Below are positions 25,770 to 32,499 of a stretch of DNA of 36,184 nt, in pieces. The number at the start of each line of letters is the position of its first letter. Position 1 is the stretch's first letter. Source of the DNA: Candidatus Omnitrophota bacterium. Lineage in GTDB: Bacteria; Omnitrophota; Omnitrophia; Omnitrophales; Danuiimicrobiaceae. The translations under genes were made by a program, and so were the position numbers. The notes beneath the pieces are model-generated. The model was not told where the DNA came from, ran no database searches, and saw nothing but the letters and a program-made list of their open reading frames with translations. The DNA is taken from positions 1 through 36,184 of the forward strand of contig JAHFHD010000006.1 of NCBI GenBank assembly GCA_023247075.1. Reading direction: 5' to 3'.

Positions 25770-26288
25770 GTGAGGCGTCGGTCGCGCATTCAGAGAAACA
25801 ATCAAGTTTTCGTTTCAAATCAGGCACCCCAGTTTCAAATACAACTTTCCCACGCAAGGCGTTTTGCGCAGGCTATTTTAAAACTTCTTCGCTTCAAAAA
25901 AGTTGTGTTGAGTCTTACTTTTGTGACAGACCGCGTGATGTCCAATTTAAACCAGCAGTTCTTAAATCATTCGTACGTTACGGATGTTTTGGCTTTTCCA
26001 GTTTCTCAGAAATTGAAAGTAAATCGACTTCAGAAATCACAGCGCGAAACTCAAAATCAATTTCTAGGTGAAGTTGTGATTGCGCCCAACCAAGCAAAGG
26101 TTCGTTCTAAGGAGTACGAAGTTTCATTTTCTGACGAGCTTTCGCGCTACATTTGCCACGGAATTCTTCATCTTGCTGGCTTTCGCGATAAAACTGTCGC
26201 TCAAACAAAAAAAATGAGACAGAAGGAAGATTTTCTTTTGACTCAATTACTTAAAGACCGCTTGGGGATTATTTCTCATGGCAATTAA
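25770..26288 (+). CDS. ybeY: Endoribonuclease YbeY (GTG start)
   Basis: NQQFLNHSYVTDVLAFPVS, LGEVVIAPNQA, ICHGILHLAGFRDKT. Confidence 0.88.
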   Translation: MRRRSRIQRNNQVFVSNQAPQFQIQLSHARRFAQAILKLLRFKKVVLSLTFVTDRVMSNLNQQFLNHSYVTDVLAFPVSQKLKVNRLQKSQRETQNQFLGEVVIAPNQAKVRSKEYEVSFSDELSRYICHGILHLAGFRDKTVAQTKKMRQKEDFLLTQLLKDRLGIISHGN

Positions 26289-27042
26289 AACGGATGAAGC
26301 TTTTGTTTTGACGCGGATGTGCTTCCGAGAGACTTCTATGATTCTGACGCTTTTTGCAAAGGAAGCAGGGAAAATTAAACTCCTCCTCAAAGGTGTTCGC
26401 GGTGAAAAAAATCCAAAATTGGCGCGTTTTGAACCATTCACAAAAGTGTCTGTCGTGTATTACGAAAAACTCAGGTCAGACCTTCATCTAGGAAGTCAGC
26501 TTGAGATTCTAGATGCACAATTGGGACTTCGGAATCAATTGAGCCGAATTGCTTTTGCAAGTTATTTAACGGAGCTCGTCGACACGCTCTTTGCCGCGCA
26601 GGACCCGCATGAGGATGTTTATGATTTGCTAGAGGCTTCTTTTGAGTGTCTTCAGCATTTTACACCGAGCACGGTGGCTCGGGTTTTTGAACTGAAGATT
26701 CTTGAGAAAATTGGTTGGCTTCCTATGCTGCAAGAATGTGCTGGTTGCGGCACAGAAGACTTGTTTCAAAGTTACTTCAGTCCACGTCAGGGTGGTGTTC
26801 TTTGCCTGAGTTGTAAGGCGAAAGATTCCAGCGCGTTTCCAGTTTCAAAAATGACTTGTCAAACACTTGTCTATTTTTTGAGTCATGATTTGTCCGATGC
26901 CGTTCAGCGTGAATTATCTCCTTCAAGCGAACGCGAATTAGCCCGAATTGGCGAAAGATTTCTGCGTTTTCACTTAGATTACCCCCTCCGCTCTACCCGG
27001 TTTCTTTCCGAAGTCCGGTTCCTGTTAGCTCCCAGTCGCTAG
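26278..27042 (+). CDS. recO: DNA repair protein RecO
   Basis: EAFVLTRMCFRETSMILTLFAKEAGKIKLLLKGVRGEKNPKLARFEPF; CAGCG...GVLCLSC zinc motif. Confidence 0.92.
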   Translation: MAIKTDEAFVLTRMCFRETSMILTLFAKEAGKIKLLLKGVRGEKNPKLARFEPFTKVSVVYYEKLRSDLHLGSQLEILDAQLGLRNQLSRIAFASYLTELVDTLFAAQDPHEDVYDLLEASFECLQHFTPSTVARVFELKILEKIGWLPMLQECAGCGTEDLFQSYFSPRQGGVLCLSCKAKDSSAFPVSKMTCQTLVYFLSHDLSDAVQRELSPSSERELARIGERFLRFHLDYPLRSTRFLSEVRFLLAPSR

Positions 27043-27209: not shown

Positions 27210-27992
27210 ATGAATCACGAATCAAAAAAATATTTGTATTTTGACATTCCTAAGCAAGAACGTGATTCCGCCATTGCTTATTTGCTTGAAGCAATTTTGA
27301 AGTCAAAAATTGCGTGCTCAAAAAATAATTCCATAGAATTAAATTGGGATGAGGACGTTAACATTTATTTAGCCCATCTCTTATTTGCAGCCTCTCTTCC
27401 AGATTACCAACAGGCCATCCGCCGGTATTTGAGTGTAAATGTTAGCGACATGGCCGAGCTACTTGAGGAAAATGACGACCGCATCGTCCGTTACTTTATT
27501 TACAAAGTGAATGCAGACAATTTGTTGATTCATCTGGGCATTTTTCATGAAGTGGATGCAGCCAAAAGTGCATTCCAAAAATCCGAAAAGCAATTTGCAA
27601 GCATGGGCCAAAATTATTACCAGCAGGCTGCCGAATACAATCAAAGGATTTACCGCAGAGACACTGCAATCGGCTCCGTACTTGAAAAACTCTCGCAGCA
27701 TTTTCTGTGGTACCAAAGAGTTCTGCATCATGCCCGTAAGGAATTCTTTCACTTCAGCAATCAATTTCGGGACACCGAATTTGTCAATTTTTGTGACAAA
27801 CTCAGTTCGTACGAGCACAAAGCAAAAGTTTCAGAAGCAATGGACAGGTTCCTCGATCAATTTGCTTTGTGGAAAGGCCACAAGGATCGAGAAACCTACA
27901 CAAAATTAACGCAAATTGCGGAGGAGTTAAAAAAATTAGACCCCGCGTTTTCGTTTGATCTAGATGGAGGAGAAAATCGTGAAGCTGCTTAA
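27210..27992 (+). CDS. Uncharacterised protein P1, C-terminus shares a motif with the two following small ORFs
   Basis: 260 aa with upstream AGGTGG. C-terminal FLDQFALWKGHKDRETYTKLTQIAEELKKLDPAFSF. Confidence 0.8.
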   Translation: MNHESKKYLYFDIPKQERDSAIAYLLEAILKSKIACSKNNSIELNWDEDVNIYLAHLLFAASLPDYQQAIRRYLSVNVSDMAELLEENDDRIVRYFIYKVNADNLLIHLGIFHEVDAAKSAFQKSEKQFASMGQNYYQQAAEYNQRIYRRDTAIGSVLEKLSQHFLWYQRVLHHARKEFFHFSNQFRDTEFVNFCDKLSSYEHKAKVSEAMDRFLDQFALWKGHKDRETYTKLTQIAEELKKLDPAFSFDLDGGENREAA

Positions 27993-28191
27993 GAAAGTTT
28001 TTGGAATTGGGAAAAAAATGAACAAACACATATCTAGCGAAGAAGTGGAGAGCCGCTTTCTCAGGCTTTATTCCCGGTGGCATGAAACACATGATTTGAC
28101 ACTGCGTAAGAAATTATTTCTTCGTTTGAAGCTCGTAATGAGGGAGATGCCCAACTTTGATATCCGGCGAAAATTTCAAAATGCTTTCTAA
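27979..28191 (+). CDS. Uncharacterised small protein P2 (~70 aa)
   Basis: GTG 27979 preceded by GGAGGAG at good spacing (ORF-track start 27964). FLRLYSRWHETHDLTLRKKLFLRLKLVMREMPNFDI aligns gaplessly with P1 and P3. Confidence 0.7.
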   Translation: MKLLKKVFGIGKKMNKHISSEEVESRFLRLYSRWHETHDLTLRKKLFLRLKLVMREMPNFDIRRKFQNAF

Positions 28192-28212
28192 TACCTTCTG
28201 ACATTTATTACA

Positions 28213-28370
28213 GGCGCTTTTTGCGCCAGTACTCATCGTGGCGACTTTGACGTCGCCTACGATTATGTGCGCCAGTACTCATCGCACTGCGCGCTTTTTG
28301 CGCGAGCACTTTCCGGGAAGAACTTGACGTTCTTCTCCGAAAGTGTGTCGGACTTGACGTCGCCTACGAT
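28213..28370. repeat. Cluster of tandem hairpins and short direct repeats
   Basis: GGCGC-TTTTT-GCGCC (28213-28227); ATCGTGGCGAC-TTTGAC-GTCGCC(T)ACGAT (28235-28263); CGCGC-TTTTT-GCGCG (28290-28304); CACTTTCCGGGAAGAAC-TTGAC-GTTCTTCTCCGAAAGTG (28307-28345). Direct repeats TGCGCCAGTACTCATCG (28222, 28268) and TTGACGTCGCCTACGAT (28247, 28354). Confidence 0.85.
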
Positions 28371-28447
28371 GACGTATTGGTAGGAGGTATTGTACCAACA
28401 CACCAAAATCAAATGAAAGTCGGTACCATATCGAAGGCAGGTGCCTA

Positions 28448-28642
28448 ATGCGCTCAAAGATGATGTGGCTTCAGCTTGAAGATGAAAGTGATTTGAAACG
28501 TGAAATTGAGCGGAGACAAGATGAGTTCCTCGATTTGTATTCACTTTACCGCCATACCGGACTTCTCGGCGTCAAAGAGGAACTTTTGCGTAAGGCCTAT
28601 GAATTGCATATTTTGAATCCGAATTTCTCTTTTCACATTTAG
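28448..28642 (+). CDS. Uncharacterised small protein P3 (64 aa)
   Basis: FLDLYSLYRHTGLLGVKEELLRKAYELHILNPNFSF aligns gaplessly with the C-termini of P1 and P2; RBS weak. Confidence 0.62.
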   Translation: MRSKMMWLQLEDESDLKREIERRQDEFLDLYSLYRHTGLLGVKEELLRKAYELHILNPNFSFHI

Positions 28643-28700: not shown

Positions 28701-28730
28701 TTGACACTGAAGCATCCGCTTTGCTAGAAT
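28701..28730 (+). promoter_or_regulatory. Candidate sigma70-type promoter of the dapL-like gene
   Basis: TTGACA (28701-28706), 18-nt spacer, TAGAAT (28725-28730). Confidence 0.62.
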
Positions 28731-28761: not shown

Positions 28762-29964
28762 ATGAAAACAATCATCTCCAATAAAAAAAATAAAACTGAT
28801 GTTTCAACAGTAGCTTCTGAGCGCATCGGAAAGCTGCCTCCCTATTTATTTGCTGAGATTGACCGGCTCAAGAGGGAATTGCTCAAAAAAGGCAAAGACA
28901 TCATTGATCTTGGTGTCGGCGACCCTGATTTACCCACTCCTAAATTTATTATTGAAGCTCTTCGCGAAGCGGCGGGTGACCCCAAAAACCACAGGTATGC
29001 CTTAGACCAAGGACTGCCTGAATTTAGAAATACCATTGCGGAATGGTTTCAGAATCGGTATGGAATCAAGCTTGATCCCAATCGAGAAGTCCTACCTTTG
29101 ATTGGTTCAAAGGAAGGTATTGGACATTTGCCGCTTGCCATTGTCAATCCCCGCGACGTGGTTTTAGTTCCAAATCCGGGTTACCCGGTGTATCAATCCG
29201 CAACCTGGTTTGCCGGAGGAACGCCGGTGTCTATGCCGCTTTTGCCCGAGAATCAATTTCTGCCGGACTTGGGTTCAATCAAAGAAAGTGCTTTGAAACG
29301 GGCAAAATTAATGTACCTCAATTATCCTAATAATCCAACCGGAGCATGCGCGACAAAACAATTTTTTAAAGAAGTTCTTCGCGTGAGCAAGCAATATGGT
29401 TTTGTGGTGTGTCATGACGCGGCTTACAACGAAATGACTTATGAGGGTTACCGCGCTCCAAGTATTTTTGAAGTCAGTGGAACAAAGGAGCGGGTAGTTG
29501 AATTTCACTCTCTTTCCAAAACATTCAATATGACAGGTTGGCGCGTTGGGTTTGCTGTTGGCAATGAACACATTCTTCGGTGTTTGGCCAAAGTAAAATC
29601 CAATCTTGATTCCGGAATTTTTCAAGCGATTCAGTGGTCAGCCATTACGGCACTTAGGGATGGGGGCGACTGGGTGAAAAAGAATTGTGCGATTTATGAG
29701 CGTCGCCGGGACATTCTAATTTCTGGTCTAAATGAAATCGGCTGGAAAGTAGAGAAACCAAAAGCCACCTTTTATGTTTGGATTCCCGTTCCTGCTGGCT
29801 ATACTTCTTCTAGACTTACAGCTAAATTGCTTGAGGAAGCAAATCTCGTGGTGACTCCTGGTAATGGTTTCGGAACATATGGAGAAGGTTATATTCGGAT
29901 GTCACTCACCATTCACGAGAGCCGCTTGAGCGAAGCAATTCAGCGGATTAAAAATCTCCGCTAA
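28762..29964 (+). CDS. dapL: LL-diaminopimelate aminotransferase-like, class I/II PLP aminotransferase
   Basis: DIIDLGVGDPDLPTPKFIIEAL, YPNNPTGACAT, CHDAAYNEMTYEGYRAPSIFEV, EFHSLSKTFNMTGWRVGFAVGN. Confidence 0.85.
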   Translation: MKTIISNKKNKTDVSTVASERIGKLPPYLFAEIDRLKRELLKKGKDIIDLGVGDPDLPTPKFIIEALREAAGDPKNHRYALDQGLPEFRNTIAEWFQNRYGIKLDPNREVLPLIGSKEGIGHLPLAIVNPRDVVLVPNPGYPVYQSATWFAGGTPVSMPLLPENQFLPDLGSIKESALKRAKLMYLNYPNNPTGACATKQFFKEVLRVSKQYGFVVCHDAAYNEMTYEGYRAPSIFEVSGTKERVVEFHSLSKTFNMTGWRVGFAVGNEHILRCLAKVKSNLDSGIFQAIQWSAITALRDGGDWVKKNCAIYERRRDILISGLNEIGWKVEKPKATFYVWIPVPAGYTSSRLTAKLLEEANLVVTPGNGFGTYGEGYIRMSLTIHESRLSEAIQRIKNLR

Positions 29965-31322: not shown

Positions 31323-31685
31323 ATGATTCGCCAACTTTTAAAATCTAAAATTCATCGGGCAACCGTTACCGAAGCCAACCCGGACTATGAAGGCAGCATT
31401 ACGATTGATGAGAAGCTGCTTGAAGAGGCAAATATGGTCCAATGGGAAAAGGTGCTGATTGCCAACTTAACCAATGGGTCTCGGGTCGAGAGTTATGCAA
31501 TTTCCGGCAAGCGGGGCTCAGGCGTGATTTGTGCAAATGGCGGAGCCGCTCTTCATAATCATGTGGGCGATTTAGTTTTGATTATGAGTTTTTGCGCGTT
31601 AAGCGATGAAGAAATAAAGCAGCACCAGCCCAAAATTGTCCGGGTTGATCATTCCAATAAAATCCTTTCCTATTCGAAAATCTAA
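31323..31685 (+). CDS. panD: Aspartate 1-decarboxylase
   Basis: MIRQLLKSKIHRATVTEANPDYEGSITID with Gly-Ser self-cleavage site; ANGGAALHNHVGDLVLIMSF. Confidence 0.95.
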   Translation: MIRQLLKSKIHRATVTEANPDYEGSITIDEKLLEEANMVQWEKVLIANLTNGSRVESYAISGKRGSGVICANGGAALHNHVGDLVLIMSFCALSDEEIKQHQPKIVRVDHSNKILSYSKI

Positions 31686-31689
31686 GCAA

Positions 31690-32499
31690 ATGACCCGTGT
31701 CGGAATATTGGGTTGCGGAGCCATTGGCCAAGCACTAGCTAAGGCGCTATGCACGCAAAAATATCAGCACGTTCAACTTTCCTTTCTCTGCGATCAAAAT
31801 CCTTCTCGAGCAATCGAACTCAAAACCCGCCTGAAATGCGCTGACATAAAAATCTTGGCTTTGCATGAATTGATTACCAAAAGTGATTTTGTTGTTGAAG
31901 CTGCTTCTATTAATGCTGCCCAAAAAATTGTTCCACTTGCACTCAAGCTCAATAAGAAAATTCTGGTGCTGAGCGTGGGAGCGCTTCTTGAGATTGGAAA
32001 CTTAAGAACATTGCTCGCTACTTCAAAAGGGACCATTTATGTTCCATCCGGAGCGCTTTCTGGTATTGATGGAATTTTGGCAGCGCGGGTTGGAAAAATA
32101 ACAAGCGTTGAAATTACGTCTCGAAAGCCGCTTCGGAATTTAAAAAGCTCTCCGTTTTTTCAAAAGGAAGGCAAGCGTTTTGGTATTATTCGGAAACCAA
32201 CTCTTATTTTTGATGGCAATGTTCGAGAGGCTGTCCGCTATTTCCCCGAAAGTTTGAATGTTGCTGCAACACTTAGTCTTGCAGGCATTGGACCAAAACG
32301 CACACGCGTTCGGGTCATTACTTCACCTCTGTACCGGATGAATCAGCATGAAGTAAGGGTGGCGAGTAGTTCGGGGGAAATTTATTGTCAAATGCTCAAT
32401 CTTCCATCCAAGACAAATTCCAAAACGAGTCAACTGGCCGTTCAATCTGCAATTGCAACTCTTTCTAAAATTTTCTCAAAAATAAAAATTGGTACTTGA
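31690..32499 (+). CDS. nadX: L-aspartate dehydrogenase-like (NadX/DUF108 family)
   Basis: RVGILGCGAIGQALAKAL Rossmann motif; VPSGALSGIDGILAA; FPESLNVAATLSLAGIG. ATG 31690 preferred over track start 31636, which lies within panD. Confidence 0.83.
   Translation: MTRVGILGCGAIGQALAKALCTQKYQHVQLSFLCDQNPSRAIELKTRLKCADIKILALHELITKSDFVVEAASINAAQKIVPLALKLNKKILVLSVGALLEIGNLRTLLATSKGTIYVPSGALSGIDGILAARVGKITSVEITSRKPLRNLKSSPFFQKEGKRFGIIRKPTLIFDGNVREAVRYFPESLNVAATLSLAGIGPKRTRVRVITSPLYRMNQHEVRVASSSGEIYCQMLNLPSKTNSKTSQLAVQSAIATLSKIFSKIKIGT

Follow-up and report, generated by a model that had tools for sequence, protein, structure and literature searches.

Among described systems, the CpcD superfamily of phycobilisome linkers comes nearest in logic to the proteins analysed here. 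CpcD and ApcC are free-standing, the same kind of domain forms the linker domain of a larger enzyme, FNR_L, and its fold is a three-stranded beta-sheet with a helix (PMC6479007). As in these linkers, one small domain is found in our locus both joined to a larger protein, which we call P1, and free, as in the neighbouring proteins P2 and P3 and in free modules encoded elsewhere. The CpcD-type domain serves docking in one assembly, and the counterpart role of the module described here is putative. In contrast to the sheet-and-helix fold of the CpcD type, the modules of P1, P2 and P3 are predicted to be helical hairpins; no sequence match links the two, and the module is without a Pfam match. Because the fold differs, the likeness amounts at most to 'works like' and not to membership. 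The second comparison concerns gas-vesicle accessory proteins. One free module of another Omnitrophota genome lies inside a gvp operon, whereas the trio studied here is encoded between recO and dapL and not in a gvp cluster, and the gas-vesicle Pfam families gave no match to the module.

Here, we analysed a stretch of 36,184 nucleotides (the window), a contig from the 2.28-Mb genome of a Candidatus Omnitrophota bacterium, and compared it with Omnitrophota MAGs as relatives. The features of the locus are as follows.

26278–27042, + strand: recO, conserved neighbour upstream (TIGR00613, synteny)
27210–27992, + strand: P1, all-helical protein of 260 aa with the module at its C-terminus (ORF, homologues, alignment, AlphaFold2, selection)
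27849–27956, + strand: module of P1, residues 214–249, comprising the end of helix 165–224 and helix 227–243 (sequence, profile comparison, model)
27979–28191, + strand: P2, free-standing module with a conserved C-terminal tail LRxEFQxAF (sequence, orthologues, clade, selection)
28057–28164, + strand: module of P2 (profile comparisons)
28214–28404, no strand assigned: copy of a dispersed repeat between P2 and P3 (genome matches, internal repeats, junction lengths)
28448–28642, + strand: P3, free-standing module with a conserved N-terminal lead, 64 aa (ORF, orthologues, clade, selection)
28526–28633, + strand: module of P3 (profile comparisons)
28762–29964, + strand: dapL, LL-diaminopimelate aminotransferase, conserved neighbour downstream (PRK09276, synteny)

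The three open reading frames named in the original prediction exist, encoding 260 aa (P1), 70 or 75 aa (P2) and 64 aa (P3). For P2, which ends at 28191, the candidate starts are ATG 27964 (75 aa) and GTG 27979 (70 aa). A GGAGG at 27966–27970 lies 8 nt upstream of the latter, and a start at GTG 27979, overlapping the end of P1, is most likely. The repeat at 28214–28404 has internal repeats and 61 matches in its own genome. In the relatives P2 and P3 nearly abut, which makes the repeat look like an insertion in the present genome. Rfam gave no match in the region. Ahead of dapL, a promoter-like element (TTGACA-18-TAGAAT, 28701–28730) suggests that dapL may have its own promoter.

The proposed similarity consisted of a gapless C-terminal motif of about 36 residues. 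The quoted 36-mers are correct and free of gaps, with proline at position 32 in all three, and the consensus of the module reads F-L-D-L-Y-S-x-W ... L-D-P-x-F-x-F. The extent had been set too short: the common unit spans about 45–65 residues, including a K-x-D that precedes the 36-mer in P1, P2 and P3 and, in P1 and in free modules elsewhere, a helical stretch further upstream. When best ungapped BLOSUM62 scores of the window sequences were compared with 2000 shuffles, the P1–P3 score of 58 was reached by none of them and the P2–P3 score of 41 by 16, and the P1–P2 score of 29 was equalled or exceeded in 587. Judged from the window alone, the triplet is thus not fully convincing, with only P1–P3 appearing clearly significant, and the P1–P2 result would suit an explanation in which short amphipathic helices resemble each other by chance or convergence and P2 and P3 are spurious or decaying ORFs. 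Homology becomes convincing with the addition of homologues: hhalign comparison of homologue profiles gave probability 97 and E 4.5e-11 for P1–P3, 96 and 1.8e-9 for P1–P2, and 77 and 2.2e-5 for P2–P3, in line with the proposal of a C-terminal motif common to the three. Searched against the whole genomes of 49 relatives, the module profile matched significantly only copies of P1, P2 and P3, one to three per genome.

Homologues of P1 were detected in 46 of 97 genomes, and orthologues of P2 and P3, with the F-L...P-x-F pattern expected by the original prediction, are present in most of the bacterial order (dozens of genomes). The trio is syntenic in relatives, lying between recO and dapL across the order, and most loci follow the arrangement hisS-aspS-(phoH, ybeY)-recO-P1-P2-P3-dapL-folK-panC-panD-uvrA, the P1–P2 and P2–P3 junctions usually abutting or overlapping. 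The complement varies among P1-bearing genomes: some hold all three genes, others P1 with P3, P1 with P2, or P1 only, and if P2 and P3 are adaptors they must be dispensable where one or both are missing. In genome G013 the locus is reduced to recO-P3-dapL (L066); P1 was not detected in this genome, which keeps P3. A tree of 143 modules, in which many other forks stay open as it rests on 60 columns, places P2 in one clade (support 99/98) and P3 in another (98/88); because each forms one clade, both look like single old copies and not like fresh duplications. The P2 tail and the P3 lead are also conserved, outside the module. Within the family, pN was lower than pS in 36 of 36 pairs for each of P1, P2 and P3, with ratios of means of 0.30, 0.37 and 0.31, respectively; synonymous sites are near saturation, which makes the ratios rough and leaves the direction clear. 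On this comparison of coding sequences, all three genes are under purifying selection, P2 and P3 included; neither of the two checks proposed as able to refute the original prediction went against it. Profile E-values, orthologues in dozens of genomes, selection and the single clades together refute the chance explanation, to which we assign a negligible probability. A 334-aa frame that seemed to represent a natural P1–P2 fusion (L072) was not accepted as evidence, as it crosses unknown bases (X in the translation). As a separate observation, the P1 proteins of those family f5 genomes that have P2 (L063, L064, L067–L071, L073–L076) share a conserved C-terminal tail similar to D-E-R-K-C-A, which is absent from the f5 lineages without P2.

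The statement that the proteins belong to no known family held in every library tried (Pfam, NCBIfam, PDB, PHROGs, PADLOC, Foldseek). None of the three proteins exceeded a curated cut-off of Pfam or NCBIfam; TSNAXIP1_N was touched weakly by 15 P1 members (best E 0.0013), most likely as a general helical signal. PHROGs yielded no meaningful match, the weak P1 matches having E 0.026 and 0.06. PADLOC, which covers anti-phage defence, gave none for the three proteins, and one free module touched Csx25 at E 0.018 only. The best match of the PDB profile search was the vimentin coiled coil (E 0.013). With the P1 model as query, Foldseek returned only short helical stretches from the PDB (best E 0.33, TM-scores up to about 0.25 in the rows shown) and a best E of 0.13 against viral models. 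An origin of P1 from mobile elements was rejected, there being no match in phage, plasmid or viral collections. We found nothing on the family in the literature, and we regard it as new.

In the AlphaFold2 model, P1 is entirely helical (mean pLDDT 88.9, pTM 0.71), and its module consists of the end of a 60-residue helix (165–224) and a helix folding back on it (227–243), i.e. a helical hairpin. The most conserved positions in 77 P1 sequences include D47, E48, D49, V50, N51, Y53, N101, D103, F112, Y137, A140, K160, Y168 and L215. Since most of them lie in the body, this pattern suggests a function of the body itself. For P2 and P3, a joined chain was modelled from a relative (L054), in which a single stop separates the two and was read as glycine; it shows two hairpins with the layout of the P1 module and no confident mutual docking (pTM 0.44), so that the placement of the two hairpins relative to each other is not predicted. 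The original prediction that a larger protein is accompanied by two free-standing helical modules is supported by homology, synteny, the single origins of P2 and P3, selection and the predicted hairpins. Its further proposal, that the proteins may bind each other or compete for one interface, is plausible and finds no backing in the P2–P3 chain. In its assembling form, the proposal holds that the modules of P1, P2 and P3 pack together and join the proteins in one hetero-oligomer, in which P2 and P3 cap the ends or fill positions that the P1 arm leaves open. The module common to all, the tight coupling of the genes and their usual co-occurrence in the order would fit such a homotypic assembly, but it is opposed by the lack of confident docking in the P2–P3 chain, by P3 without P1 in G013, by the single free modules that other families have without P1, and by the P1 proteins of other phyla with only their own module, and we consider it rather unlikely.

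Outside Omnitrophota, P1 homologues were found in Krumholzibacteriota, Latescibacterota, Eisenbacteria, Fibrobacterota, Gemmatimonadota and unplaced MAGs, and nearly all of them end in the module. Omnitrophota was the only group in which free modules were detected. None was seen in 20 whole genomes with P1 from other phyla, where the module occurs at the P1 end only, once per genome, or twice in a genome with two P1s. IMP dehydrogenase and regulators are nearby in some of the P1 neighbourhoods outside Omnitrophota; a shared pathway is not apparent from them, and P1 stands alone on its own strand. At the distant P1 loci L126–L166 (Krumholzibacteriota, Latescibacterota and related MAGs), a nitrilase-superfamily gene is often the divergent neighbour. 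Beyond the order, 12 Omnitrophota genomes encode a free module in small ORFs of 63–127 aa, and P1 was not detected in 11 of these. In family f43 the free module lies between a UvrD/PD-(D/E)XK helicase and a gpsA-like gene, in f18 it is found downstream of an smc-like gene and in f55 it adjoins ribosomal protein S21; the names gpsA-like and smc-like were assigned by eye and are to be taken as presumptive. Another copy (L187:7995–8183; genome G112, of another Omnitrophota family) sits inside the gas-vesicle operon at L187:6786–13883 with a GvpN-like AAA ATPase, Hsp20, GvpL/F, a response regulator and a gene at L187:6786–6995 that we take, by eye from its sequence, to be gvpA; the G112 genome also has P1 elsewhere (L189). 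Genome G048 has a P3-like free module in the vicinity of two genes, one for a STAS-PilZ protein and one for a Fis-type HTH protein (L086:688–2255). A P1-like protein of genome G125 (L190:303–941) stops near residue 205 and is without the module; a separate module was not found in this genome, the contig ending 300 bp beyond the gene.

These contexts bear on two further explanations. P2 and P3 could be dominant-negative competitors that occupy the P1-arm site and switch P1 off, as might be expected of modules lacking the P1 body and encoded directly after P1; however, free modules exist without any P1 to regulate, and P2 and P3 are distinct clades with conserved peptides of their own, features that would be superfluous in a pure competitor, making this role improbable. 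Alternatively, the module might bind nucleic acid or a small regulator instead of serving as a protein dock, the cluster then being a regulatory unit. The copy beside the STAS-PilZ and Fis-type HTH proteins and the one accompanied by a response regulator in the gas-vesicle operon are compatible with such a role, but no nucleic-acid-binding family matches and the contexts of the free modules are inconsistent, and we rate it as quite improbable.

We favour, at somewhat short of an even chance, the interpretation that the trio is a cluster with a new docking module at its core, in which P2 and P3 are adaptors bearing different payloads and a third partner is likely. In P1 a long helical arm would end in the module, an alpha-helical hairpin; P2 and P3 would consist of little but the module, to which each adds a short conserved peptide of its own. 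The module would bind one common kind of surface, more probably belonging to a third partner than to P1 alone. As adaptors, P2 and P3 would use the same dock with payloads that differ, the LRxEFQxAF tail in one and the N-terminal lead in the other. Because the P1-P2-P3 layout has lasted across the whole order, the tail is probably a docking part that is also used alone. The module can occur alone, is under selection and is accompanied in each setting by conserved additions that differ (in P1 a body of 200 residues, in P2 the LRxEFQxAF peptide and in P3 the lead), as would be expected of a docking domain with different payloads. Counting against this interpretation are the absence of P2, P3 or both from some P1-bearing genomes, the low pTM of the joined P2–P3 model and the fact that a helical hairpin may serve structure alone. 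Since P3 persists in G013 and free modules persist without P1, at least some copies are likely to have another partner than P1, and together with the weak P2–P3 model this tilts our interpretation towards a third partner. More tentatively, and with doubt about the picture as a whole, we envisage an undescribed docking domain that stems from a protein common to Omnitrophota, Krumholzibacteriota, Latescibacterota and related phyla, was freed as adaptors in Omnitrophota, may be the hub of a cellular complex and could have been reused, e.g. in the gas-vesicle operon.

P1 has been kept across several candidate phyla, yet it is without a family in the curated libraries searched and without a fold match. 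The trio clearly exemplifies the release of a terminal module as genes of its own, which have stayed next to the parent gene throughout a whole order. It makes mutual binding versus a common third partner directly testable, and the free tail copies of 64–70 aa represent small baits for finding the partner of P1. Further downstream in the window (31323–32499), directly after panC, the panD gene overlaps one whose product has the C-terminal domain of aspartate dehydrogenase.
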